This document shows, in pieces, positions 33,040-59,468 of a DNA stretch of 64,000 nucleotides; positions within the stretch are counted from its first letter, which is position 1, and every line of letters begins with the position of its first letter. Source of the stretch: Jilunia laotingensis (GTDB lineage: Bacteria > Bacteroidota > Bacteroidia > Bacteroidales > Bacteroidaceae). The stretch spans positions 1,302,001 to 1,366,000 of the forward strand of contig NZ_JACRTF010000001.1 of assembly GCF_014385165.1 (NCBI RefSeq). The letters are read 5' to 3'. The position numbers were made by a program, and so were the translations under genes. Under the pieces are notes generated by a model. It was given only the letters and a program-made list of their open reading frames with translations. It was not told the origin of the DNA and ran no database searches.

Positions 33040-34572
33040 TTAGTTATTACTCCATCCTAGGTCATCATTTGCTATCCCTGCGATAGCCTTGTCACTTACA
33101 TAAATAGTTATATATCCGGGTGAACCTTTCATCTTTATATATTGTCCGGAACCGCGCTTTCCGTTGTACCCACCGAACTTTTCGATAAGTGCATCATACA
33201 GTAGTCTGGCGTTACTGCGATCGGACAATATAAGATGCAAGGTTATGTAATCCAGACGAGCGTTCGGCAAGTCATGTACGGTAGTTCCCCACCAGCCATC
33301 GGACACTCTTTCCACAAAAGTACCTTCTGCATAGATACCATAATCCAAATCAGGCGAATACTTTCTCTCTACACTTATTGCGTTTTCTCCTAAGTGGTAT
33401 TTCTTTCTGAAATCAGAGATGCTTGTTGCAGTTACTTTTATTCCATCCACTTTATTGTCATTGAGCATGAAAAGAACCCAAGATACAATGTCGTCCTTAT
33501 TAAAATATTCAGACTCTACCGACTCTCTGACAGGCAAAAAGAATATATCTGATAAATTGGCTCCATCAAACTGAGGATTCACTACGTATTTCCCATCTTT
33601 ATTAATGAGTCCCCATTTACTTCCCAAATAAGCCCAAGCAACATCACCAAGGAAGGGTGTGGCAAACTGGAACTGTGGATTGATTTCTATTTTCCCCGAT
33701 TTATCTATATAGCCACACTGTTTGCCCATCACAACAGGTGCCAGTTTACCTCCCAGAAAAGGAATAGCTTCCTCAAACTGCGGATTGATGATAATCTTGC
33801 CCTTTTCATTGCACCATCCATATACGTCACCTATTCGTATAATGTATCGTCCATCGTCCCAATCCATTCTATCAAACTGCGGATTGATGACAAATTCTCC
33901 CTTCTTGTTAATCACGCCATACTTATCTCCGGACATGACAACCGCCCTCCCGTTCATAAAGTGTTCTGCCGAATTGAACTGGCAGTCTATCACTACATTA
34001 CCTTTCTTATCTACATATCCAAAAGTTCGGTTCAGGCTTTGTACAGCGGCCAATCCATCTACAAAGTTAGATGCAAAAGCGTATTCTATCGGTAGTTCAA
34101 ACGCGGTGTTACCATTTCCGTCAATTGCCCAATATTTGCCATTATCATTGACGGCTATTGCCAGCCCGTCTGAATAATTGGATACACTCCTTGCTGCTTT
34201 TATCTCTGAAATCACCTCTCCACCCGTATTTAACAATACGGGAGCCCCTTTAGGAGCTACACACCAAGCTTTCCCTTCAAAAAAGTCCGTAGCACTACTA
34301 TATGTAGGGTTTATCACAAACTTTCCATCTTTGTCAATGAATCCGTACTTTTCATTGATACAAACTTTAGCTAGTCCATCAGAAAAAGCATTTGCCATAT
34401 CAAACTGTGGGTTTATGACATACTCCCCTTTCTTATTGATATAACCCCACTTATCACCTTGTTTTATGGGTAACAGAGAGTCGTCAACATTTGCTCTTCC
34501 GTCCGATGAACAGGAGGCGCACAATAACAGTGCGATAAGACCTCCCAGTAAAATACCAAATAACTGTTTCAT
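33040..34572 (-). CDS. WG-repeat lipoprotein
   Basis: This 510-residue lipoprotein has signal LLGGLIALLLCASC followed by SSDGRANVDD. Residues of about 35-345 are eight or nine WG repeats (KWGYINKKGEYVINPQF, KYGFIDKDGKFVINPTY, KYGVINKKGEFVINPQF and so on), a beta-propeller-like repeat of unknown function. The last ~160 residues are a separate domain (SDIFFLPVRESVESEYFNKD onward) that I do not recognise. It lies 13 bp before the Sel1/TonB_C gene, so both are likely cotranscribed. Confidence 0.85.
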   Translation of the reverse strand: MKQLFGILLGGLIALLLCASCSSDGRANVDDSLLPIKQGDKWGYINKKGEYVINPQFDMANAFSDGLAKVCINEKYGFIDKDGKFVINPTYSSATDFFEGKAWCVAPKGAPVLLNTGGEVISEIKAARSVSNYSDGLAIAVNDNGKYWAIDGNGNTAFELPIEYAFASNFVDGLAAVQSLNRTFGYVDKKGNVVIDCQFNSAEHFMNGRAVVMSGDKYGVINKKGEFVINPQFDRMDWDDGRYIIRIGDVYGWCNEKGKIIINPQFEEAIPFLGGKLAPVVMGKQCGYIDKSGKIEINPQFQFATPFLGDVAWAYLGSKWGLINKDGKYVVNPQFDGANLSDIFFLPVRESVESEYFNKDDIVSWVLFMLNDNKVDGIKVTATSISDFRKKYHLGENAISVERKYSPDLDYGIYAEGTFVERVSDGWWGTTVHDLPNARLDYITLHLILSDRSNARLLYDALIEKFGGYNGKRGSGQYIKMKGSPGYITIYVSDKAIAGIANDDLGWSNN

Positions 34573-34628: not shown

Positions 34629-35468
34629 CTATTCTTTACGTGGAATTCTTCCATTGTCATTGATAGTAATAGAACCATCATCCCTGTTGAAAACGATGTT
34701 GCATTTTACCGGAGGGCAGTTCGGACAAGCTCCTGACTGGAATTGTACTTCGGCATAATCATGGTGAATAGAAATTATGGAATCTATCACGTCACAGCTT
34801 CCGCTACCTTCATCGTCATACAAACTATATCCATAGCAATTCACTCCTTCCATAAAAGATTCGTTGCATGTAATCTGCTTATAGAGACTCAGGATGACGG
34901 TATATGTCCTACTAATGCCCGGCTCTTCTTCAAAGTGCGATTGCCACTTTCCATTAAAAGGTTTGTCATCCGGTATATACTGAAATGTGGAATCCTGGTT
35001 CTTGATATAAATGGTTTTCATTTCGGGATTGTAGATGAGCGTATCGATGTTGAGTTGCTCCCAACTGTCCATCGACACTACTCTATAAGCATTATGCCCA
35101 AGATATGCCACAGAATCGATGTCATAATGATAGATACGAGAGACATTGGAGAAATCCATCCAACCATAGCTGTTTTGTCCGCTCGGCAAGGTGAGTTCAG
35201 GGAGGAACGTACGACCGGAAAAATCCAGTTCCATACTATAAGTAATATTCTTGACATCTTCCATCTGCCCCCGAAGACTCGGATCATTCCTGAGCGGCAT
35301 TTCCCATCGTCCTTTAATAAGTGCAGGCTTTTCAGATTCAATGATTGGGATACTGTCGGATGTTGCGACAGAATCGCCTTGTTTTTTAGAAGAACAGTTG
35401 CCAAGCATTATCAGTAGCCAACAAGCTGTAATGATCTTAAATAGAGAAAAGAAAAAATGTTTCATCAT
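34629..35468 (-). CDS. Hypothetical lipoprotein heading the WG/Sel1 operon
   Basis: From the ATG at 35468 (MMKHFFFSLFKIITACWLLI, lipobox MLGNC, then SSKKQGDS) this is about 279 residues. Longer reading from 35519 would translate part of the structured leader, so I prefer 35468 or 35465. The mature part is beta-rich (RGQMEDVKNITYSMELDFSG, DSTFQYIPDDKPFNGKWQSH, DDGSITINDNG) and I recognise no family. It starts about 21 nt after the conserved leader at 35489-35822, the same geometry as the lipoprotein at 55941-57785. Confidence 0.75.
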   Translation of the reverse strand: MMKHFFFSLFKIITACWLLIMLGNCSSKKQGDSVATSDSIPIIESEKPALIKGRWEMPLRNDPSLRGQMEDVKNITYSMELDFSGRTFLPELTLPSGQNSYGWMDFSNVSRIYHYDIDSVAYLGHNAYRVVSMDSWEQLNIDTLIYNPEMKTIYIKNQDSTFQYIPDDKPFNGKWQSHFEEEPGISRTYTVILSLYKQITCNESFMEGVNCYGYSLYDDEGSGSCDVIDSIISIHHDYAEVQFQSGACPNCPPVKCNIVFNRDDGSITINDNGRIPRKE

Positions 35469-35488
35469 AGTAGAGAACTTTTGCGTAC

Positions 35489-35822
35489 CTATAGTCTCCC
35501 CTGATTCAGCACTATACAAAAAAAGACGTGGGAGTCTGTACCATCACTTACCCCACGTTCCAGGCCTTCGCATTGCCCACCAAGTAAGGATAAGCAACGC
35601 AGAAGCCCACGCCGATATGTACATCGACCTTATGCACCCTCGTTCTAAGGTACACAGGCGGTATAGACATACCCCGCAGACATCTACTGTTGCCTTGCCA
35701 TCCTACTTGGTTTCAAAGTTGCGAAGTTTGGAACGTAGAAAGCAAAACGTTTAGTAAACGTCTTTTCTAAAATATATGTATTCCCCACCATCCTCTCCCT
35801 TTATTCAGGGCATCGGCGTGGG
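35489..35822 (-). promoter_or_regulatory. Structured leader RNA, copy A
   Basis: It is read on the minus strand, upstream of the lipoprotein/WG/Sel1 operon, and is homologous to the leader at 57797-58107. Shared blocks: the hairpin ACGTTTACTAAACGT (35747-35761), GCGTTGCTTATCC, ATCGGCGTGGG (complement of 35606-35616), CCCACGTC plus U7 (35518-35532), and GCTGAATCAGGGG. ACCAAGTAAGGAT (35579-35591) pairs with ATCCTACTTGGT (35700-35711). ATCGGCGTGGG can pair either with the upstream CCCACGCCGAT (complement of 35812-35822, 11 bp) or with the downstream CCCACGTC in front of U7. That is the layout of an attenuator. Ligand or function is unknown. Confidence 0.75.
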
Positions 35823-51694: not shown

Positions 51695-52729
51695 CTAATC
51701 ACTACCAAACAAGCTTCCTTGGTTACTATTGTAAATGCTACGCCCCAAATGTTTATAGGCCAGTTCCGTTACTTCGCGCCCGCGAGGCGTTCGTTTCAGG
51801 AAACCTTCTTTGATCAGGAAAGGCTCATAAACTTCTTCGATGGTTCCGGCATCTTCTCCTAAAGCCGTAGCAATGGTGGTAAGTCCAACGGGACCGCCTT
51901 TGAACTTATCGATAATCGTACAAAGTATCTTATTATCTATTTCGTCCAGCCCATACTTGTCGATGTTCAAAGCTTCCAGCGAAAAGTTAGCTATCTCCGT
52001 ATCGATGGAACCAGAACCCTTCACTTGTGCAAAATCGCGTACACGGCGGAGCAGTGCATTAGCAATACGAGGCGTACCACGGCTGCGGGAAGCTATTTCA
52101 CCGGCAGCGGGAACCGAACACGGCACATTCAAGATAGAAGCAGAACGACGGATGATATTGCTCAATACATCATCATCATAGTATTCCAGATGCAGGTTGA
52201 TGCCGAACCGTGCCCGCAAAGGAGCGGTTAACAGGCCACTACGGGTAGTTGCGCCAACAAGTGTAAAAGGACTCAGATCAATCTGAATGCTCCTTGCAGA
52301 AGGACCTTTGTCAATCATTATGTCGATGCGGTAATCTTCCATAGCAGAGTACAAATACTCCTCCACAACCGGAGACAAACGATGGATTTCGTCGATAAAC
52401 AACACATCGTTCGGCTCGAGACTGGTAAGTACACCGGCCAGATCACCCGGTTTATCAAGCACCGGCCCTGAAGTAATTTTAAATCCTACCCCAAGTTCGT
52501 TAGCGATGATATTAGATAGCGTTGTTTTTCCCAGTCCGGGAGGTCCATGCAAAAGAACATGGTCAAGAGCTTCCCCACGAAGACGAGCGGCTTTTACAAA
52601 GATGCGGAGATTATCCACCACTTTATCCTGCCCGCTAAAGTCTTCAAAGCTAAGTGGACGAAGTGCATTCTCAAAATCCCGTTCGCGGCTCGTTAGTTGA
52701 TGATCCCGTATATTAAAGTCTTCTTCCAT
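51695..52729 (-). CDS. ruvB: Holliday junction DNA helicase RuvB
   Basis: This 344-residue AAA+ motor drives branch migration with RuvA. It has Walker [12 protein letters not shown], Walker [10 protein letters not shown], sensor 1 [18 protein letters not shown] and the C-terminal winged helix ([29 protein letters not shown]). I take the ATG at 52729 ([20 protein letters not shown]), which matches the family N-terminus. The 15 extra residues possible upstream run into the promoter region. Confidence 0.96.
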
Positions 52730-52762
52730 AAAATCTCGTACACATATTTCTGATATAGACGA

Positions 52763-52770
52763 CAAAGATA
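52763..52770 (-). promoter_or_regulatory. -7 box for ruvB
   Basis: The minus strand reads TATCTTTG, a full TAnnTTTG match, 33 bases before the chosen ruvB start. This supports 52729 over 52774. Confidence 0.55.
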
Positions 52771-52903
52771 GCATAAATCAAAAATACTCTACTAATAGTT
52801 GACACTATTTGTTTTTCTTGGAAACTTCGGAATCAGTCTATTGATAAAAACAAGGCAAAATAGTGCGGTCTATTTATGCCATTTATAAAACTATCGCATA
52901 TTA

Positions 52904-53176
52904 TTATTCGTACACCAAATAAATCTCATTAGTCATAAAATTTATCTCCCAATTTCCCCCTTCTATGCTTTCCCAATGATATTCTTCTGCCATACGATCC
53001 CACCAGTTTTGAAACTTCAGACCTGTATTACCCAAATCCTTAACCAGTTTCTCATATAAAGCCTCATCAGCAACAGTTATTATTTTTGATAATTCTTTTA
53101 GTCCATTACGACGTTCATGCAAAGCCTGAATTTCATTCTTCTCCTCTTCAGAAACAGTTCCAATTAACTTTTTCAT
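52904..53176 (-). CDS. CXXX repeat peptide modification system accessory protein
   Basis: This 90-residue soluble protein (MKKLIGTVSEEEKNEIQALH, HERRNGLKELSKIITVADEA, LKFQNWWDRMAEEYHWESIE) is acidic and mostly helical. I recall a family of this size and start, annotated as a CXXX repeat peptide modification system protein. The recognition is from memory. It could be a peptide-recognition or chaperone partner for the radical SAM enzyme. It is the last gene of the minus-strand operon, 21 bp after the gene at 53198. Confidence 0.7.
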   Translation of the reverse strand: MKKLIGTVSEEEKNEIQALHERRNGLKELSKIITVADEALYEKLVKDLGNTGLKFQNWWDRMAEEYHWESIEGGNWEINFMTNEIYLVYE

Positions 53177-53197
53177 AACATACCAATTATTATTAGT

Positions 53198-54142
53198 TTA
53201 AAATTCTTTTCTTATATCTAACGGATCGAGATAAACTAGTTCCTTTATATCCTGCCCAGGCAAAAACTCCCTGATTTGCCGTCTGAGAGCAGACAGTAAA
53301 AGGCGCGAAGCATTGCGTTCCAAATGCGCAACGACACATTGCTCATGCGAAGGAGTATTAACTTCATTAGTCATCTTACGATTCAAATATATACATCGCC
53401 TGCATTGATAAGCATCACAATTACGGCACAAAGGAGCATGATCTAACCGATAAAGCTGGGAATTCTTAATATCCAGCCCTGATTTTAAATCCCCAATGGA
53501 ATCGTTTTCTGTTTCATAATAAAAAGCCGGGCAAACATAAAAATTACCATTAGGAGCCAACGTTACACTCTCCCAACCAGAATTACAGTTATTCATCCGA
53601 CTTAACATCAGCCGATCAGTCAATAAATTCAGTTGTGGAGTTTTCCCTTGTTTATGCAAATCCTCTAATTGAAAAGATATCCGACTTAATACGCATTGGT
53701 AGGCTTCAAAATCTTTCTCTGTAAAAGTCTCTATATCGGTTATAATTACATTCAATCGAGAAATTTTGGAAATTACTTCTCCAATAACGGTATAATATCT
53801 GAAGAAATCTTTTTTTACAGTACGAAGCACATAAGCAACATTCAATTCATACGAATAAGTCCGTAATTGTATCCAGCCATCTAACACAACTACATCTGCA
53901 TGCTCCTTATGGACTGCCGGAACTATTTTACTGTGCCTCACCGTATCTATAATATTTTTATATTCTTGTGGCAAATCATAACTCGGATAAACAAACTGAA
54001 CCGTTAAATCCTCTTTCATCGCAAACATTACTCCTGCTTTGAGATCTTCCAATCCAATTAATCTATTTTCTAACCCTTTATTACTGTAATGACAGTATGA
54101 TATACTAGTGTCATCTAATACGATAATCAAATATTGAAGCAT
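53198..54142 (-). CDS. CXXX repeat peptide maturase (SPASM-like, no radical SAM motif)
   Basis: This 314-residue protein has no CX3CX2C cluster-binding motif in its N-terminal half, so it cannot be an ordinary radical SAM enzyme. The C-terminal third (about residues 190-290) has a SPASM-like cysteine set: NNCNSGWESVTLAPNGNFYVC, LCRNCDAYQCRRCIYLN and SHEQC. This fits the in-silico family named CXXX repeat peptide maturase. It may deliver the precursor or an iron-sulfur cluster to the rSAM enzyme encoded upstream. It starts 33 bp after that gene. Confidence 0.75.
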   Translation of the reverse strand: MLQYLIIVLDDTSISYCHYSNKGLENRLIGLEDLKAGVMFAMKEDLTVQFVYPSYDLPQEYKNIIDTVRHSKIVPAVHKEHADVVVLDGWIQLRTYSYELNVAYVLRTVKKDFFRYYTVIGEVISKISRLNVIITDIETFTEKDFEAYQCVLSRISFQLEDLHKQGKTPQLNLLTDRLMLSRMNNCNSGWESVTLAPNGNFYVCPAFYYETENDSIGDLKSGLDIKNSQLYRLDHAPLCRNCDAYQCRRCIYLNRKMTNEVNTPSHEQCVVAHLERNASRLLLSALRRQIREFLPGQDIKELVYLDPLDIRKEF

Positions 54143-54175
54143 TACACTCGTTGATTATATTATAAATGTTTTATT

Positions 54176-55354
54176 TTACCTTTGATTTTCATTCATTCTC
54201 TCCCTTTCCAATCTGGGAAAGAGTTTATTCCAATAATAATTATTTGCATGTACACGAGCTTTATGCATTTTACAAATAGCGGTAGAACGCTGATAAATGG
54301 TAGCAGTTTCCGCTGCATCGTAATTCTCTCCTTGACACCATGCACATCCTTCAGCGACTTCACAGGTTATACATTCTTGTGAACTTTGCGTACAACGGTC
54401 TAAGGTAAGAAACGGACGGAGTTTATTCTTATCGATGCCGTCCCAAACATTTCCAATAATCCAAGCTTTCTTATTTCGCAATGAATATTGGGCAAAGCGA
54501 GTACAAGGATAAAAATTTCCCGCAGCATCCACAGATAACATTCTTCCTGCTCCGCACCAATTCTGATTCTGATGAACACAATCCATCGGTTTGCCCAAAT
54601 GTTCGCTAAAAAAAGAGCAAGCATAATCGTGATAGTACTCTTTATCGATAATCTCATCTGCTAATAGCAGTAGCTGTTCTTCAAACAAAATATCATCACC
54701 CGGTAGCCAAACATCCTCAAACACGCAATTTATATTAACCTCATGAATGCCTAAACCATAAAGATGGAGTACGCTATCTTTGATATAAGGGATATCGGCA
54801 CTACTGATCGTTACTTTTGTAGCAGCATTGGGAAATTGCTCCAGCCAAAGGGGAATATTGCGAACTACATCATGGTATGATCCTCGCCCGGTAATTTTAT
54901 ATATCCGGTTCAGATCATGCTTCATTTCTGTTCCATCAATCGTAATTCCAATGCTCAGATGGCCGAGATTCTTCTTAACAAACTGCTGTACTTTCTCTTC
55001 GCTATAGTTGATGCCATTGGTAGAAAAACTAAAACGGTAGGAATTAAACCAATGATGATTCCTCCTAAACATTTCAATCTTAATATAATCACAAATCCGA
55101 TCTATTAAACCTATTTCCAGAAACGGTTCACCTCCAATAAAATCCCAAACTACTGATTCCTCAGGGAATTCCCGTTCATTATCGAAAATATAATCAATCG
55201 CTTGTTTAGCTATCTCCCAAGGCATTCGTTCTTTTGTGTTTTTCCCTACGAGATAGCAATATTTGCAAGCAAGCTGGCAGTCTTTGGTAACGATGAAGGT
55301 AATAGATTTTGCTATACCGCCTTTCCAGTTATCGTTAATTTTAACTTGATTCAT
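54176..55354 (-). CDS. Radical SAM/SPASM peptide maturase of the CXXX system
   Basis: This 392-residue enzyme has the radical SAM motif CQLACKYC (Cys26, Cys30, Cys33), DFIGGEPFLE for SAM binding, and a C-terminal SPASM domain with auxiliary cluster cysteines (WCGAGRMLSVDAAGNFYPC, then CITCEVAEGCAWC, then ICKMHKA). SPASM enzymes install thioether, carbon-carbon or epimer changes in ribosomal peptides. It starts 7 bp after the Cys-rich precursor gene, so the two are coupled. The substrate is inferred to be that precursor, with thioether cross-links the likeliest chemistry. The chemistry is not readable. Confidence 0.88.
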   Translation of the reverse strand: MNQVKINDNWKGGIAKSITFIVTKDCQLACKYCYLVGKNTKERMPWEIAKQAIDYIFDNEREFPEESVVWDFIGGEPFLEIGLIDRICDYIKIEMFRRNHHWFNSYRFSFSTNGINYSEEKVQQFVKKNLGHLSIGITIDGTEMKHDLNRIYKITGRGSYHDVVRNIPLWLEQFPNAATKVTISSADIPYIKDSVLHLYGLGIHEVNINCVFEDVWLPGDDILFEEQLLLLADEIIDKEYYHDYACSFFSEHLGKPMDCVHQNQNWCGAGRMLSVDAAGNFYPCTRFAQYSLRNKKAWIIGNVWDGIDKNKLRPFLTLDRCTQSSQECITCEVAEGCAWCQGENYDAAETATIYQRSTAICKMHKARVHANNYYWNKLFPRLERERMNENQR

Positions 55355-55361
55355 ATTGATT

Positions 55362-55925
55362 CTAGTAGTTCATTTGCATACAGACATGGGTACATGAGTG
55401 TAAACAATACCTATCACACCCTCCTAAGCAAGATACGTTGCAATTCCCTTGACAAGATTTATCACAAGTATTCAAACATGAGATATTACATCCCGTTCTA
55501 CAAGTCGTGTCACAATTCTGCGCACATCCCTGATTACAACTATTACCGCAACCGGAACAAGAAGATGAAGTGGCAGAATCTTTGCAATTATTACCACAAT
55601 TATCCTTACAACCATTCGTACAGCTGACACTACAATCGGAGCATGAAGAAGACTTGGCAGTATTGTTACATTCTTCATTACAACCTTCTTTGCAAGTATT
55701 ACTACATCCGCTTCCGCAACCATTTTGGGCAGTCCCAACACAACTACTGCTACAGCTCGTACCACATCCCGCTTGGGCAGTCCCAGTACAACTGTTTTTA
55801 CAACCAAGCGGCTCGTCATCTTTGCTGCAAGCACTTAATAAACTTGGTGCCAATACTATTATCCCCAAAAATGGGATAGTCTGCTTTATGGCTTCTTTAA
55901 TGAATTCCCGACGTGTTATTCCCAT
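55362..55925 (-). CDS. CXXX-repeat cysteine-rich peptide precursor, Tat/lipoprotein
   Basis: This 187-residue protein has TRREFIK (twin-arginine), a hydrophobic stretch, then lipobox LLSAC (Cys33) and acidic SKDDE, a Bacteroidetes surface-export-like signal. After it come 32 cysteines in 154 residues. Thirty sit at residues 42+4k (42, 46, 54, 58, 62, 70 ... 182); only Cys95 and Cys123 are shifted by one. Gaps are 8 or 12, so the register never breaks. Internal duplications: residues 46-61/62-77, and 86-113/114-141. There is no catalytic motif. It matches the CXXX repeat radical SAM target family. It is flanked by a lipoprotein gene upstream and the rSAM gene downstream. Confidence 0.9.
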   Translation of the reverse strand: MGITRREFIKEAIKQTIPFLGIIVLAPSLLSACSKDDEPLGCKNSCTGTAQAGCGTSCSSSCVGTAQNGCGSGCSNTCKEGCNEECNNTAKSSSCSDCSVSCTNGCKDNCGNNCKDSATSSSCSGCGNSCNQGCAQNCDTTCRTGCNISCLNTCDKSCQGNCNVSCLGGCDRYCLHSCTHVCMQMNY

Positions 55926-55940
55926 ATATCTATTTATAAT

Positions 55941-57785
55941 TTAATCAAAATAGTACAACCCTTTTTCTTTCAAGATATAGTGATAACGTATATCATCATC
56001 TATATTTGTAAATTTAAGATCCGTCTCATATGGAAAAACAAGATAATATGCACCGATTCCGTTAAATTCCTTCCAACCACCATCTTTCCGAAAATAAAAG
56101 CTACCTCTTCCATTTTCCAAATATATTGATTTTGAGTAGTCGGTATTTTTCTTCAAATAGCTATTATCTCCAACTGCCTCAACAAGATATGTACCGGTAA
56201 TTTTTATATCATATACGATTTCAAGATAAAGTTTATATCGCGTAGTATACATTTCGGACATATCTTTTTCACAACCATTGATTTTTAAGTCAATAGAAAA
56301 ATCACCGCCAATGGTTTGAATGAATACCTCATCATCAAAATACTCAACCTTTGACTCTATACGATTATATGGCCTTATATAATAAGTTGTTCCAGGCTTT
56401 AAAGCAGTCAATTCCAAATGTAATTTACCATCGCTTTCAAGGCTGGCAGTCGTTGTATTATCCGTAATCTTAGGATTTGGAGATGTTCCGTAACAGACAT
56501 TAATAGTAGTTATTCCACTTGGGGCGGCAGATATTAGTATGATTTTGTCCTCATATATATCAGTAGCCTCGAAATGTGTTTTAATAATACCTGTTGTAGT
56601 AAATTCACCTGTTTCTCCATAATAATAATCCCCATTCAGTTTGGCAAATATGCGAACATAGTAAGTGGTTTCCGGCTGCAAATCATTCAATGTATACGCA
56701 ATATTGTTGTTCGAAAGTATCACTTTCGTATCGGCAATTGTTGGCATTGGTGAAATTGAATAGCAAATGCCGATTTCCTCCGTTTGTAAACCATAAGTCG
56801 TTATGGTTCCTTGGATATAGGCCGTGGATGTAGAAACAGAAGTTATCTGGGGGATAGATATATCAACTGTCGTTTTCGTGGCAAACATTGCCTGATCTCC
56901 ATATTTGGCAGAGCCGTCTGTAATTGCGTAAATACGAACATAATAAGTAGTATTCGCTTCTAATTTAGTCAATGTATAAGAGAGGCTCTCACCGGATAAA
57001 GAAACTTTTTTATCATTAATTGTCGGTGATGGGGTTGTAGAATAACAGATACCAACCTCACTGATCTTAACCCCGAATGCCTTTGCCGTCCCTGTTACTA
57101 GGGCCGATATTGAAGTAACGGCCGAAACTTCGGGAGCAGATATTATTACTCCTTTATTTAAAACTGTAATTTGGCAGGATGCCGTTTTACTTCCATTATT
57201 TGTGGTCGCTTTAATAGCAACCTTCCCTTCTGCCACGGCAGTCACTTTACCATCGCGATCTACTGTTGCTATGCTATTATCTTCGGAACTCCAAGCTACA
57301 GCTTTATTGGTTGCATTATCAGGAATTACAGTCGCCTCAAGTGTCACATCATCTCCTACTACCATAGTGGTATCTATAGGATTAATAGATACTCCTGTCA
57401 CATTGACCACTTTATCTACTACCGTAACCTTACATGTGGCAGTTTTTTTCCCAACAAGTGAAGTTGTGGTAATAACAGCCTCACCAAGTTCCACAGCAGT
57501 TACCATTCCCGTCTCATCGACTGTCGCAACACCGGGTACGCTCGAACTCCAAGTATGTCCTTTGTCAGATGCATCCCCTGGAGTAAAGGAAGCAATCAAT
57601 CGTTCAGTCTTTCCTTTTTCCAGTACTAATTCATTTTTGTTCAATGCAATATCAGGGGACTCCACCTCTTTGTCGTCACTTTTACTACAGCCCGATGCTA
57701 AAAGCAATGCCAACAACAAAACTGTTTCTGCAAGAACACACATTGACCTACTACTAAACTTCTTATTACTAAGCATAAATAACAT
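55941..57785 (-). CDS. Ig-like/FN3-like surface lipoprotein heading the CXXX operon
   Basis: This 614-residue lipoprotein has lipobox LLASGC followed by SKSDDKE, again acidic. Two bacterial Ig-like (Big_2) domains (about residues 45-125 and 128-210, SSVPGVATVDETGMVTAVEL and SSEDNSIATVDRDGKVTAVA) are followed by three fibronectin-III-like domains (TTYYVRIYAITDGSAKYGD, TTYYVRIFAKLNGDYYYGET, GTTYYIRPYNRIE) and a unique C-terminal ~120 residues. There is no catalytic site. It probably reaches out from the surface and could scaffold or bind the modified peptide. The stop is 15 bp before the precursor start. The ATG at 57776 is an alternative start. Confidence 0.83.
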   Translation of the reverse strand: MLFMLSNKKFSSRSMCVLAETVLLLALLLASGCSKSDDKEVESPDIALNKNELVLEKGKTERLIASFTPGDASDKGHTWSSSVPGVATVDETGMVTAVELGEAVITTTSLVGKKTATCKVTVVDKVVNVTGVSINPIDTTMVVGDDVTLEATVIPDNATNKAVAWSSEDNSIATVDRDGKVTAVAEGKVAIKATTNNGSKTASCQITVLNKGVIISAPEVSAVTSISALVTGTAKAFGVKISEVGICYSTTPSPTINDKKVSLSGESLSYTLTKLEANTTYYVRIYAITDGSAKYGDQAMFATKTTVDISIPQITSVSTSTAYIQGTITTYGLQTEEIGICYSISPMPTIADTKVILSNNNIAYTLNDLQPETTYYVRIFAKLNGDYYYGETGEFTTTGIIKTHFEATDIYEDKIILISAAPSGITTINVCYGTSPNPKITDNTTTASLESDGKLHLELTALKPGTTYYIRPYNRIESKVEYFDDEVFIQTIGGDFSIDLKINGCEKDMSEMYTTRYKLYLEIVYDIKITGTYLVEAVGDNSYLKKNTDYSKSIYLENGRGSFYFRKDGGWKEFNGIGAYYLVFPYETDLKFTNIDDDIRYHYILKEKGLYYFD

Positions 57786-57796
57786 AGGTTAATGCC

Positions 57797-58107
57797 TATA
57801 GACTTTCCCCTGATTCAGCAATAAATAAAAAAAGGCATGGGAAGTCTGTACTTTCGCTTATCCCGAACTCAGGCTCTCGCATCGCCCATCTACAAGGATA
57901 AGCAACGCAGCTAGCCCACGCCAAGATGAAATATACAGAACACCACGCCAAACGCAATGTTTGAATATGCACCTAATGTGGACGCTCCCCGTTGCCGTAT
58001 CTCCTTGTAGATTTCAAATTTGCGAGATTTGAGTTCAGAAGATAACGTTTGGTAAACGCCTTTTCTCAATTATTCATAAGAACCTCCCCTAACCCACTGG
58101 CTAGCTG
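57797..58107 (-). promoter_or_regulatory. Structured leader RNA, copy B
   Basis: It lies upstream of the CXXX operon and is homologous to copy A at 35489. On the minus strand it has the GCGTTTACCAAACGT hairpin, GCGTTGCTTATCC, GGCGTGGG (complement of 57915-57922), CCCATGCC plus U7 (57827-57841) and GCTGAATCAGGGG just before the first gene. ATCTACAAGGA (57888-57898) pairs perfectly with TCCTTGTAGAT (58002-58012). In copy A the same helix has different bases and still pairs. A 5' segment CAGCTAGCC (complement of 58099-58107) can pair with GGCTAGCTG (complement of 57908-57916), overlapping the terminator-like stem's strand. Role is unknown. Confidence 0.75.
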
Positions 58108-58778
58108 AGATTCCTCACAAAGGAAAGTACTTTTAACAAGAAAAGCAAATGTTTTGTGAAAAATCAATGCTTATTTATTCTATGTATTAATTGGGACATG
58201 CAACAATAACGATAACTATACAATAAAAGTGAAAACAAAACATAGTATTCTTCCAACAAAAAAACGTTGTGATTTCAATTACTTTTTGTCACTTTGTATT
58301 TCCTACCCACTCATGGTTCCGTTTTTTCCGCCCTACATACAAGTGAAAGCGAAAAAACGAAACGAATTTTCATATTTTCCAATGATACAGCCGGATACAG
58401 GAATCTTTACAGTTCTAAAAAATAATAATAGAGCCTATTTCTCTCTTTTATTGGAATTAGAAAGCAAAAAGAGGTATTTTACATGATGAATGCGGATATC
58501 GGAGCTGATGGGTATTGCTACCCAACGTGATGGACATTGCTACTTTACACGTTGGGCATAGCTATTCCACATATCAAGTATCCCTACCTGACGTGTTGGG
58601 TATAGCTATCCAAGAAACCGAACATGCTACATTCTCAACACATATAGCAAAAAAACGGAATAAAAATGCCGATCTTCCATCTATGGCTTCCTATTTTTTC
58701 GTCTCAAAAAGATATGCTTGTCACAAGAACATGGGAAAAAGAAACAATCTGATAAGGAATATATTGAAAAGTGAACAA
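58068..58778. other. Intergenic region upstream of the CXXX operon, with a 22-bp array
   Basis: It holds the 5' part of leader copy B, a possible -7 box TTCCTTTG (complement of 58118-58125, one mismatch), a motif near 58284-58307 shared with 38107-38130, and the array at 58491-58610. Forward frames at 58229-58486 and 58515-59060 are not supported. Confidence 0.6.
58491..58610. repeat. Phased degenerate repeat, about 5.5 units at 22 bp
   Basis: The cores TATTGCTA, CATTGCTA, CATAGCTA, TATCCCTA and TATAGCTA begin at 58513, 58535, 58557, 58579 and 58601, exactly 22 bp apart, after a weaker unit at 58491. The unit resembles that of the 38.4-kb array (A/TATAGCTA plus TGATGG). Confidence 0.85.
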
Positions 58779-59468
58779 TCATTCCACAATCCATTTTTCA
58801 ATATTCCGTGTTTTCTTACTAAAGTTTACCCCAATCTTGAAAAGCTTACGGGGATCGGATGCAAAAGGCAAAGCGTAGTGCTTCTCATTAATCTGTTGCA
58901 ATGCTTCCTCCGCTGTGCCATTCAATTTAAACTCCATTACATAAATAAATTTATCCGTTTGCAGAACAAGGTCAACGCGCCCCTCACTGGTATGGTATTC
59001 CGCTTTTACGTAGAAACCTACCAGTTTGAAAACGATAAAAAGTACATTCTGATAATGTAGTTCCAAATCATGAGCTAATTCATAGGGGGTATCTGCAAAG
59101 AAACTCTGCAGGCGACGAAAGAATGCATCATAATCACCATTGTCTACTTCCTGTACAAATTTCTTTATCTCAAACGGAGATTGCACCGCACTGTAATGGG
59201 TATAATAGTGAAGCAAAAAGCGAATGAACCTCTCTTCCACTTCACGATTAGGAAATCCCAGACGGTAAATACCGAATTCTGGATCATAATCCTTGATAGT
59301 AAGATAACCGCTCTGGTAGATGACGGGAATAGGGTCGGTAGATGAAGCGTCAATGCTATTGAGTACATCGGCACTTGTTTCCTCGTGTGCCATACGTTCC
59401 AAATCATAATGATGCTTCTTGAGCAATTTCACTAAATAAGTAGGCGTACCCGTCTCAAACCAGTTACA
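58779..59468 (-). pseudogene. 5'-truncated AAA-ATPase/PD-(D/E)XK nuclease gene
   Basis: The remaining frame reads CNWFETGTPTYLVKLLKKHH at its start and ends in a PD-(D/E)XK-like nuclease part (AEYHTSEGRVDLVLQTDKFIYVMEFKLNG). In full-length family members of about 520 residues, the phrase WFETGTPTFLVKLL follows a ~250-residue AAA-ATPase domain. Here a TAA at 59469-59471 lies two codons upstream of it, so the ATPase half is gone. A -7 box (TATCTTTG, complement of 59474-59481) abuts the break. That suggests a deletion between promoter and C-terminal part. A start at 59432 would give a 217-residue nuclease-only protein. Confidence 0.8.

Follow-up and report, generated by a model that had tools for sequence, protein, structure and literature searches.

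What does an operon make when it pairs a radical S-adenosylmethionine (SAM) enzyme with a protein full of cysteines, and how does the product leave the cell? We considered these questions for five genes on the minus strand of Jilunia laotingensis contig NZ_JACRTF010000001.1. They lie at positions 52904-57785 of a 64,000-nucleotide stretch (1,302,001 to 1,366,000 of the contig's forward strand), which we will call the window. In order of transcription, they encode a large lipoprotein of 614 amino acids with Ig-like (Big_2) and FN3 domains (55941..57785); a CXXX-repeat precursor of 187 amino acids with 33 cysteines (55362..55925); a radical SAM/SPASM enzyme of 392 amino acids (54176..55354); a partner of 314 amino acids (53198..54142); and a protein of 90 amino acids (52904..53176). 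We propose that the enzyme cross-links the precursor in the cytoplasm and that the twin-arginine translocation (Tat) system then exports the precursor, already folded, to the cell surface. We consider this proposal probable, with substantial room for doubt.

An initial annotation of these genes had described five open reading frames (ORFs) with gaps of 7-33 bp, beginning with an Ig-like and FN3-like lipoprotein. All five are present at those lengths, the gaps are 15, 7, 33, and 21 bp, and Big_2 and fn3 domains were matched in the lipoprotein. By their NCBIfam scores, three of the five proteins belong to families that were already defined in silico. The enzyme scores 643.8 bits against TIGR04115 (cut-off 350), the 314-residue partner scores 252 bits against TIGR04119 (cut-off 150), and the 90-residue protein scores 89.8 bits against TIGR04116 (cut-off 50). 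So, the annotation's expectation that the small proteins would match the CXXX-repeat models held for these three, but not for the precursor, which is below the cut-offs of both target models.

Relatives of the enzyme were found with a profile scan of GTDB species genomes, using a 13-row alignment of the enzyme, and we kept the best 80 of the 385 stretches that encode it (L002-L081). Nearly all of these are titled Bacteroidales or families thereof, and a few are Clostridia. A homolog of TIGR04119 lies within 2.5 kb of the enzyme in 79 of the 80 loci, and a homolog of TIGR04116 does so in 74; in five of the six misses, the contig stops less than 1.3 kb from the enzyme. Cysteine-rich ORFs are found upstream of the enzyme and, in some loci, downstream as well. 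The ORF clusters that are common to more than 11 loci include the precursors, the enzyme, TIGR04119, TIGR04116, TatA, and TatC, plus one antisense-frame cluster over a coding region. This recurrent neighborhood implies that the arrangement in the window is not due to chance. It also supports the initial view of the operon as a CXXX-repeat radical SAM system that is conserved elsewhere with a similar gene order. However, that view overlooked the Tat signal, the TatA and TatC of the relatives, the pseudo-radical-SAM character of the partner, and a leader RNA, all of which are described below.

The repeat region of the window precursor (residues 42-182; 55380..55802, minus strand) is evident from its cysteine pattern. 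The precursor has 25 CxxxC pairs, and across residues 126-182 the cysteines are exactly 4 positions apart without a break. We selected candidate precursors by cysteine content alone (at least four CxxxC), which gave 147 of 160 cysteine-rich ORFs, or 148 with the window precursor. In this set, 86% of the intervals between cysteines have a spacing of 4, and 6.9% (203 intervals) have a spacing of 3. The last X of CxxxC is Ser, Gly, or Thr in ~73% of cases, and Gly occupies the middle X in 36%. Among 143 precursors, 83 have an odd number of cysteines and 60 have an even number (binomial p = 0.065, with rough lipobox calls in the count). Because odd and even counts are both common, there is no sign of obligate pairing between cysteines. 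There are 1 to 8 precursors per locus, with lengths of up to 434 amino acids. A precursor of 416 amino acids in L004 (at -1260 from the enzyme start) has a large non-Cys domain between two blocks of repeats; we take this domain to resemble the FISUMP type.

The radical SAM cysteines of the enzyme (CX3CX2C at 55256-55279; C26, C30, and C33) are invariant in all 13 aligned enzymes, as are the SPASM cysteines (C267, C284, C328, C331, C337, C340, and C361, within 54272-54556). The enzyme's second-best NCBIfam family is PapB (NF047865), at 190 bits, which is below that family's cut-off of 340. The only relative in PDB at E <= 1e-10 is CteB (5wgg/5why; E = 1.4e-31). PapB makes thioethers and the repeats of its substrate PapA are CX3D (PMC9413430), and CteB also makes thioethers (PMC10352776). 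Given that PapB is the nearest other family and CteB is the sole close PDB relative, our best guess is that TIGR04115 enzymes cross-link the cysteines of the precursor, and by analogy thioether cross-linking of the target is likely. The residue at i+4 is usually Cys and not Asp, so the acceptor must differ from PapB's. It is possible that the thioethers are formed to Ser, Thr, Gly, or Asn or to a carbon of the next Cys.

The fourth gene, which had been noted as SPASM-like, does have a SPASM domain in the AlphaFold2 model of TIGR04119 (pLDDT 91.5, 61 sequences), and the model adds a partial barrel. It resembles CteB, TigE, and anSME, and the best Foldseek match is 5why (E = 5.6e-12). None of the 61 rows contains CX3CX2C. 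The SPASM cysteines are invariant (within 53336-53587 in the window). From the model, we predict that TIGR04119 is a pseudo-radical-SAM protein. The enzyme and TIGR04119 are fused in Anaerococcus prevotii (728 amino acids) and in locus L085 from IMG/VR (737 amino acids), which suggests a physical partnership; genome G038 has a 725-residue open frame that points to such a fusion too. PapB reportedly requires intermolecular electron transfer in every cycle, likely via its second auxiliary cluster (PMC10470005). We infer that TIGR04119 may be a dedicated electron acceptor or shuttle, or else a docking subunit, for an enzyme that would act many times on each chain. The TIGR04116 protein is modeled as a helical hairpin plus three strands (in the order strand, two helices, two strands; AlphaFold2 pLDDT 94.7). 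This model, which we also viewed as a candidate RRE fold, has no match in PDB at E <= 0.001. We predict that it is an adaptor.

The same cysteines might instead bind metals or Fe-S clusters. If so, the CXXX protein would be a surface lipoprotein that uses Tat because it receives its cofactor in the cytoplasm, and the enzyme would modify or protect only a few positions. Spacings of 4 and 3 are compatible with thiolate binding, and Tat often transports proteins with cofactors. Also, three loci encode cysteine-rich lipoproteins with DnaJ-like CxxCxGxG repeats behind the CXXX genes (L020 at +2524, L021 at +2217, and L030 at +2210 from the enzyme start). But the X positions are mainly Ser, Gly, or Thr, with little His or acid; the closest enzymes, PapB and CteB, make thioethers; and the precursor has no match in Pfam at E <= 1. 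We think that metal binding is unlikely, but its chances are not negligible.

How would the protein leave the cell? The N-terminus of the window precursor reads MGITRREFIK...LLSAC-SKDDE, which combines a Tat motif, a lipobox, and an acidic signal of the export type. The twin-arginine motif in the signal peptide is TRREFIK (residues 4-10; 55896..55916, minus strand). An RRxZZ motif is found within the first 100 residues of 143 of the 148 CXXX ORFs, including the window's, and two of the five exceptions begin at contig edges. A stricter motif, [STND]RRx[FL][FILMV] within the first 60 residues, is found in 138 of 148 CXXX ORFs versus 9 of 3,668 background ORFs (the other ORFs of at least 70 amino acids in the same loci). 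In the 143 precursors, the motif is followed by a conserved hydrophobic stretch and then by one of two types of signal. In the lipobox type, the first Cys is mostly 27-28 residues after the RR; 39 of the 143 are of this type by the rule that we used, which misses at least the precursor of L034. In the second type, the first Cys comes later, and most of the 30 listed rows of the other 104 have an AxA-like site before it. Since the window precursor has the twin-arginine signal, the hydrophobic stretch, and the lipobox, its sequence places it among predicted Tat substrates. In our view, export of the target protein by Tat is very likely.

The lipobox of the window precursor (LLSAC, with Cys33 as the predicted lipidated residue) is followed by SKDDE; Cys33 and SKDDE together span 55812..55829 (minus strand). 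The export signal of lipoproteins in Capnocytophaga canimorsus is C-X-K-(D/E)2, as described in PMC5080379, and CSKDDE conforms to this rule. The initial annotation had suggested a surface-displayed product; display with a lipid anchor is indeed what the lipobox and SKDDE predict. From these motifs, we consider the surface location of the window precursor to be likely.

Many of the relatives appear to have a translocase of their own. TatC is encoded on the operon strand, behind the enzyme genes, in 51 of the 80 loci. Among the remainder, the sequence of nine loci stops within 3 kb of the enzyme, and in 20 there is enough space for TatC but none is present; in 17 of these 20, TatC is found elsewhere in the genome. 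A TatA-like ORF precedes the operon TatC in 49 of the 51 loci (by motif search). The one TatA and two TatC operon copies that we scanned are above the NCBIfam cut-offs for TIGR01411 and TIGR00945. Of the genomes behind the 51 loci with an operon TatC, we examined 34, and 27 of these have a second TatC gene. We also considered a sample of 295 genomes from the window's order (completeness not stated), eight of which encode TIGR04115 above the cut-off. Two or more matches to TatC were found in four of these eight genomes versus 12 of the 287 others (Fisher p = 3.6e-4). In a tree of TatC (52 operon rows, one of which is a duplicate, and five others), the operon copies group apart from the housekeeping copies of Bacteroides. 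The exceptions have long branches: L046 is near the housekeeping copies, and a housekeeping copy from Xylanibacter (L140) is near the operon copies.

These genes bear on another idea, namely that the RRxFFK stretch is only a recognition leader for the maturation enzymes and that export uses Sec or some other route. Conservation does reach well past the two arginines (for instance, L-P-I-L-G), as in a recognition leader. And with only ~15 residues before its radical SAM domain, the window enzyme has no sizeable N-terminal domain for recognition. However, the TatC in 51 of 80 operons and the second TatC in 27 of 34 genomes would not be expected, nor would a lipobox or AxA-like site after the hydrophobic stretch. 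The two roles are also compatible with each other. We consider it quite improbable that the stretch serves only as a leader.

Several observations weigh against cross-linking followed by Tat export. The window precursor scores 33.1 against TIGR04117 (cut-off 50) and 15.6 against TIGR04114 (cut-off 20), so it is not recognized by either model for CXXX targets. Its RR stretch could double as a leader that the enzyme recognizes. The sequence after the lipobox agrees less well with the consensus of Bacteroides fragilis, SDDDD (PMC5080379), than with the C. canimorsus rule: the polar start and the acids are shared, and the Lys at +3 is not. The window operon does not contain TatA or TatC and is followed by ruvB. 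Among 119 genomes of the genus, the best match to this ruvB has 82% identity, and the window's species is not evident among them. We assume that this strain uses its housekeeping Tat; all seven Bacteroides strains of PMC6281302 seem to possess TatA and TatC. TatC is above the cut-off in 248 of the 295 genomes from the order, which rules out the mere presence of TatC as evidence, so only the operon copies and the second copies count. In three of the 20 loci that could hold an operon TatC and do not (L035, L068, and L069), the genome, whose completeness is not stated, has no match to TatC. The five loci whose lipoproteins are most similar to the window's show no operon TatC (three have room and two end early), so the lipid-anchored subtype in the window may make use of just the general Tat system. 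The N-termini of the four cysteine-rich proteins from phage contigs that we examined have no RRxZZ signal, so such a signal is not a requirement of the enzyme family. Finally, the role of TIGR04119 as an electron shuttle is drawn by analogy.

The repeat protein could also be a precursor that is cut into small secreted peptides, such as a bacteriocin or a signal. Multiple precursors in some loci (up to 8) would fit this, as would a peptide of 56 amino acids in Anaerococcus whose gene has a lanthipeptide cluster and ABC transporters as neighbors. Near five of the 80 loci, there is also an ORF that resembles an ABC transporter. But the ORF clusters that are common to more than 11 loci include neither a protease nor a peptide transporter, a lipobox is present in 39 of 143 precursors, and some precursors are as long as 434 amino acids. 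We doubt that small peptides are the product. Lastly, it is very unlikely that the cysteines stay free or disulfide-bonded while the enzyme acts on something else: no direct chemistry is known, but the enzyme is linked to CXXX ORFs in nearly all loci, and the cysteine counts (83 odd and 60 even, given rough lipobox calls) do not favor this.

We return to cross-linking followed by Tat export as the explanation that we prefer. Upstream of the operon are a promoter and a leader RNA of an attenuator-like type, and this RNA would control the operon's expression. Along the repeat, the radical SAM enzyme would remove hydrogens and connect the sulfurs of the cysteines to neighboring residues, as PapB or CteB do with their substrates. 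TIGR04119 would act as an electron acceptor, shuttle, or docking subunit during many rounds on one chain, with TIGR04116 as the putative adaptor. Once stiffened, the chain would hardly pass through Sec, so the Tat signal, which is plain in the sequence, would take it out. The pore would be the housekeeping Tat in the window strain and the operon's Tat pair in the 51 of 80 relatives that have one. The window precursor would then acquire a lipid at Cys33, and SKDDE would direct its flipping to the surface. There, it would stand beside the large lipoprotein that is encoded just before it.

The initial annotation had proposed this lipoprotein as a partner of the modified peptide. Homologs of the lipoprotein are found in 11 of the 80 genome loci and in one locus from IMG/VR. 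In 10 of the 11 loci, the homolog is -18 to +104 nt before a following CXXX precursor; the exception is the homolog in L081, which is 2.6 kb away from the precursor. There are 11 lipoprotein-precursor pairs (L023 has two), and all but one involve lipobox-type precursors, as judged by eye. The five closest homologs (from L005, L034, L038, L058, and L061) precede lipobox-type precursors of 171-195 amino acids, similar to the window's; the contigs of L005 and L058 end early. A large Cys-poor ORF lies directly before the precursor for 12 of 39 lipobox-type precursors versus 4 of 103 others (p = 3.5e-5; the lipobox rule in this comparison differs slightly from the one that gave 39 of 143). We dropped the reading that the lipoprotein is not conserved, given the homologs in 11 loci, 10 of which adjoin a precursor. 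Because these homologs and Cys-poor ORFs are found before lipobox-type precursors, the lipoprotein appears to be the partner of a subset and not a constant part of the system. In other words, the proposed partnership stands for the loci where the two genes adjoin (10 of 80) and fails as a general rule; on this sequence evidence, it is real for the lipid-anchored subtype only.

Ahead of the lipoprotein gene, there is a structured leader RNA of ~235 nt (57827..58060, minus strand), and a Bacteroides-type promoter, TTTG-N20-TTCCTTTG (58118..58149, minus strand), is just upstream of it. The consensus for Bacteroides promoters is TTTG / TAnnTTTG. Among five leaders that were searched, including the window's, TTTG-N20-TNNNTTTG is also found in L002, L003, and L005, and the spacing is N22 in L011. 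The RNA has two mutually exclusive folds, a rod and a terminator-like hairpin that ends in a T-run, which compete for the strand CGTTGCTTATCC. Across nine aligned copies, 95.0% of cells in the rod fold are paired, and 16 pairs have changed on both sides. The rod has 49 double-change cells versus a mean of 15.5 after shuffling, and none of 500 shuffles reach 49 (this alignment also supplied the structure). In the terminator-like fold, 99.3% of cells are paired, but just one pair has changed on both sides, and 54 of 500 shuffles have as many paired cells. Because this fold varies little, it is the rod that argues for a structured RNA. We infer that the leader is an attenuator-like element and that it controls the operon. 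Rfam 15 gave no matches at E <= 0.1 in window positions 52000-59000 and, at the gathering level, no matches that overlap the element in six loci.

A model of the 95 nt at the 3' end of the leader (R1) scores 109.8 bits on the window's copy, which was a training row. R1 matches upstream of the enzyme, on the operon strand, in 48 of the 80 loci (seven of which were training rows), and for 30 matches, the distance from their end to the next CXXX start codon is 50-84 nt. In the sample of genomes from the order, the leader is found in 7 of 8 genomes with the CXXX system and in 51 of 287 others (p = 5.7e-5). Those 51 genomes, and a second copy in the window, rule out a switch that is exclusive to CXXX operons. 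The second copy (35519-35614, minus strand; 92.6 bits, also a training row) is upstream of a lipoprotein gene (34629-35519), which is followed in the same operon by another lipoprotein gene (33040-34572) that we take to be WG-repeat-like. In L158-L160, too, the leader is ahead of other secreted or lipoprotein genes. Given these other genes, the leader may be a wider regulator of the envelope in Bacteroidales. It has no match in PLSDB (by blastn) or in IMG/VR (by exact pattern). Separately, a small XRE-like helix-turn-helix protein is encoded near the operon in 11 of the 80 loci, at a median of -2.4 kb with a wide range, and is a possible regulator.

Relatives of the enzyme are also encoded by phages. 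We found 58 such loci in IMG/VR, and five of the six that were scanned pass TIGR04115. In 40 of the 58, an ORF with CX3CX3C is encoded on the same strand as the enzyme relative and no more than 2.5 kb away. The CXXX proteins beside TIGR04115-like enzymes in phage contigs (L083-L139) are large, with up to 522 amino acids and 126 cysteines. Examples of an enzyme with its CXXX protein are L101:7929-9923, L104:6172-9224, and L108:6361-9245. In these three loci, the neighbors match PHROGs for baseplate, tail, or tail fiber; in L083, none of the neighbors are informative. The cysteine-rich protein matches phrog_6085 (function unknown) in three of these four loci. We compared two of the phage enzymes to 50,697 phage records, and they matched 84 and 109 records, all at under 60% identity; the two best are fecal phage records, and the other matches listed are near 23-28% identity. 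None of the 58 loci encode TatC, and TIGR04119 and TIGR04116 were found in one locus each (fused in L085, and in L082). Given the tail-module neighbors and the absence of TatC matches, a related chemistry may be at work in virion tail modules, independently of Tat. One can imagine a more sweeping explanation, in which CXXX proteins are an encoded, cross-linked rod or armor, a continuous polythioether that a single enzyme family zips together, and the same family hardens the cysteine-rich proteins from the tail modules of phages. Such a rod could leave the cell only after folding, and therefore the operon in Bacteroidales would have been given its own Tat pore, with the rods put to use at the cell surface. 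We view this explanation as tentative and rather doubtful.

Among plasmids, the best of 70 matching records in PLSDB is from Anaerococcus prevotii, at 48% identity. This plasmid, pAPRE01, is typed as conjugative and has a minimal version of the system (L001:44-2517), with a CX3CX3CX3C peptide (the 56-residue peptide mentioned above) and the enzyme-TIGR04119 fusion. It also has a short TIGR04116-like ORF (identified by eye), and the system adjoins a class III lanthipeptide cluster.

In the literature that we searched, which leaves most subscription papers outside its coverage, we found no characterized product of the CXXX-repeat system and nothing on CXXX-repeat radical SAM proteins or TIGR04115. 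With the same coverage, the matches listed did not include any ribosomally synthesized and post-translationally modified peptide of the radical SAM type that is exported by Tat. As far as we have checked, the Tat signal on nearly all of the targets and the TatA and TatC in the operons are new (our comparison to the NCBIfam families was by scores). The same holds for the partner with a predicted pseudo-radical-SAM fold, the lipoprotein that accompanies the lipid-anchored subtype, the leader RNA that Rfam 15 does not list, and the branch in phage tail modules. In short, these are known in-silico families with a new export logic. If our proposal is correct, then Tat is an unusual shipping route for a chemically modified peptide, and a modification system with its own translocase would explain how a heavily cross-linked chain exits the cell. 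It would also be a natural test of how rigid the cargo of Tat can be. An orphan family from gut Bacteroidales would become a testable pathway for a surface protein, with operon tatC versus housekeeping tatC as a genetic handle. The leader RNA, which is outside Rfam 15, and the relatives in phage tail modules are separate leads of general interest.

How does this system compare to known ones? It belongs with the CXXX-repeat system of NCBIfam, as three window proteins exceed the curated cut-offs and the gene order is the same in relatives, but its precursor falls below both target models. Like the surface lipoproteins of Bacteroidetes, the window precursor follows the C. canimorsus rule after its lipobox cysteine, but the consensus in B. 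fragilis is another one, and neither Tat nor radical SAM modification is mentioned in the part of PMC5080379 that we consulted. The scanned copies of TatA and TatC from the operons score as ordinary Tat components; what differs is that they sit in a modification operon and are often second copies. PapB and PapA form a ranthipeptide system, whose product is named freyrasin. The window enzyme resembles PapB and CteB in being a radical SAM/SPASM protein that is paired with repeated Cys motifs of i, i+4 geometry. However, the window enzyme misses the cut-off for PapB, and the residue at i+4 of the precursor is usually Cys instead of Asp or Glu. Also, in contrast to both known systems, the putative substrate here is a long protein that carries an export signal, and a second SPASM protein accompanies the enzyme in nearly every locus.

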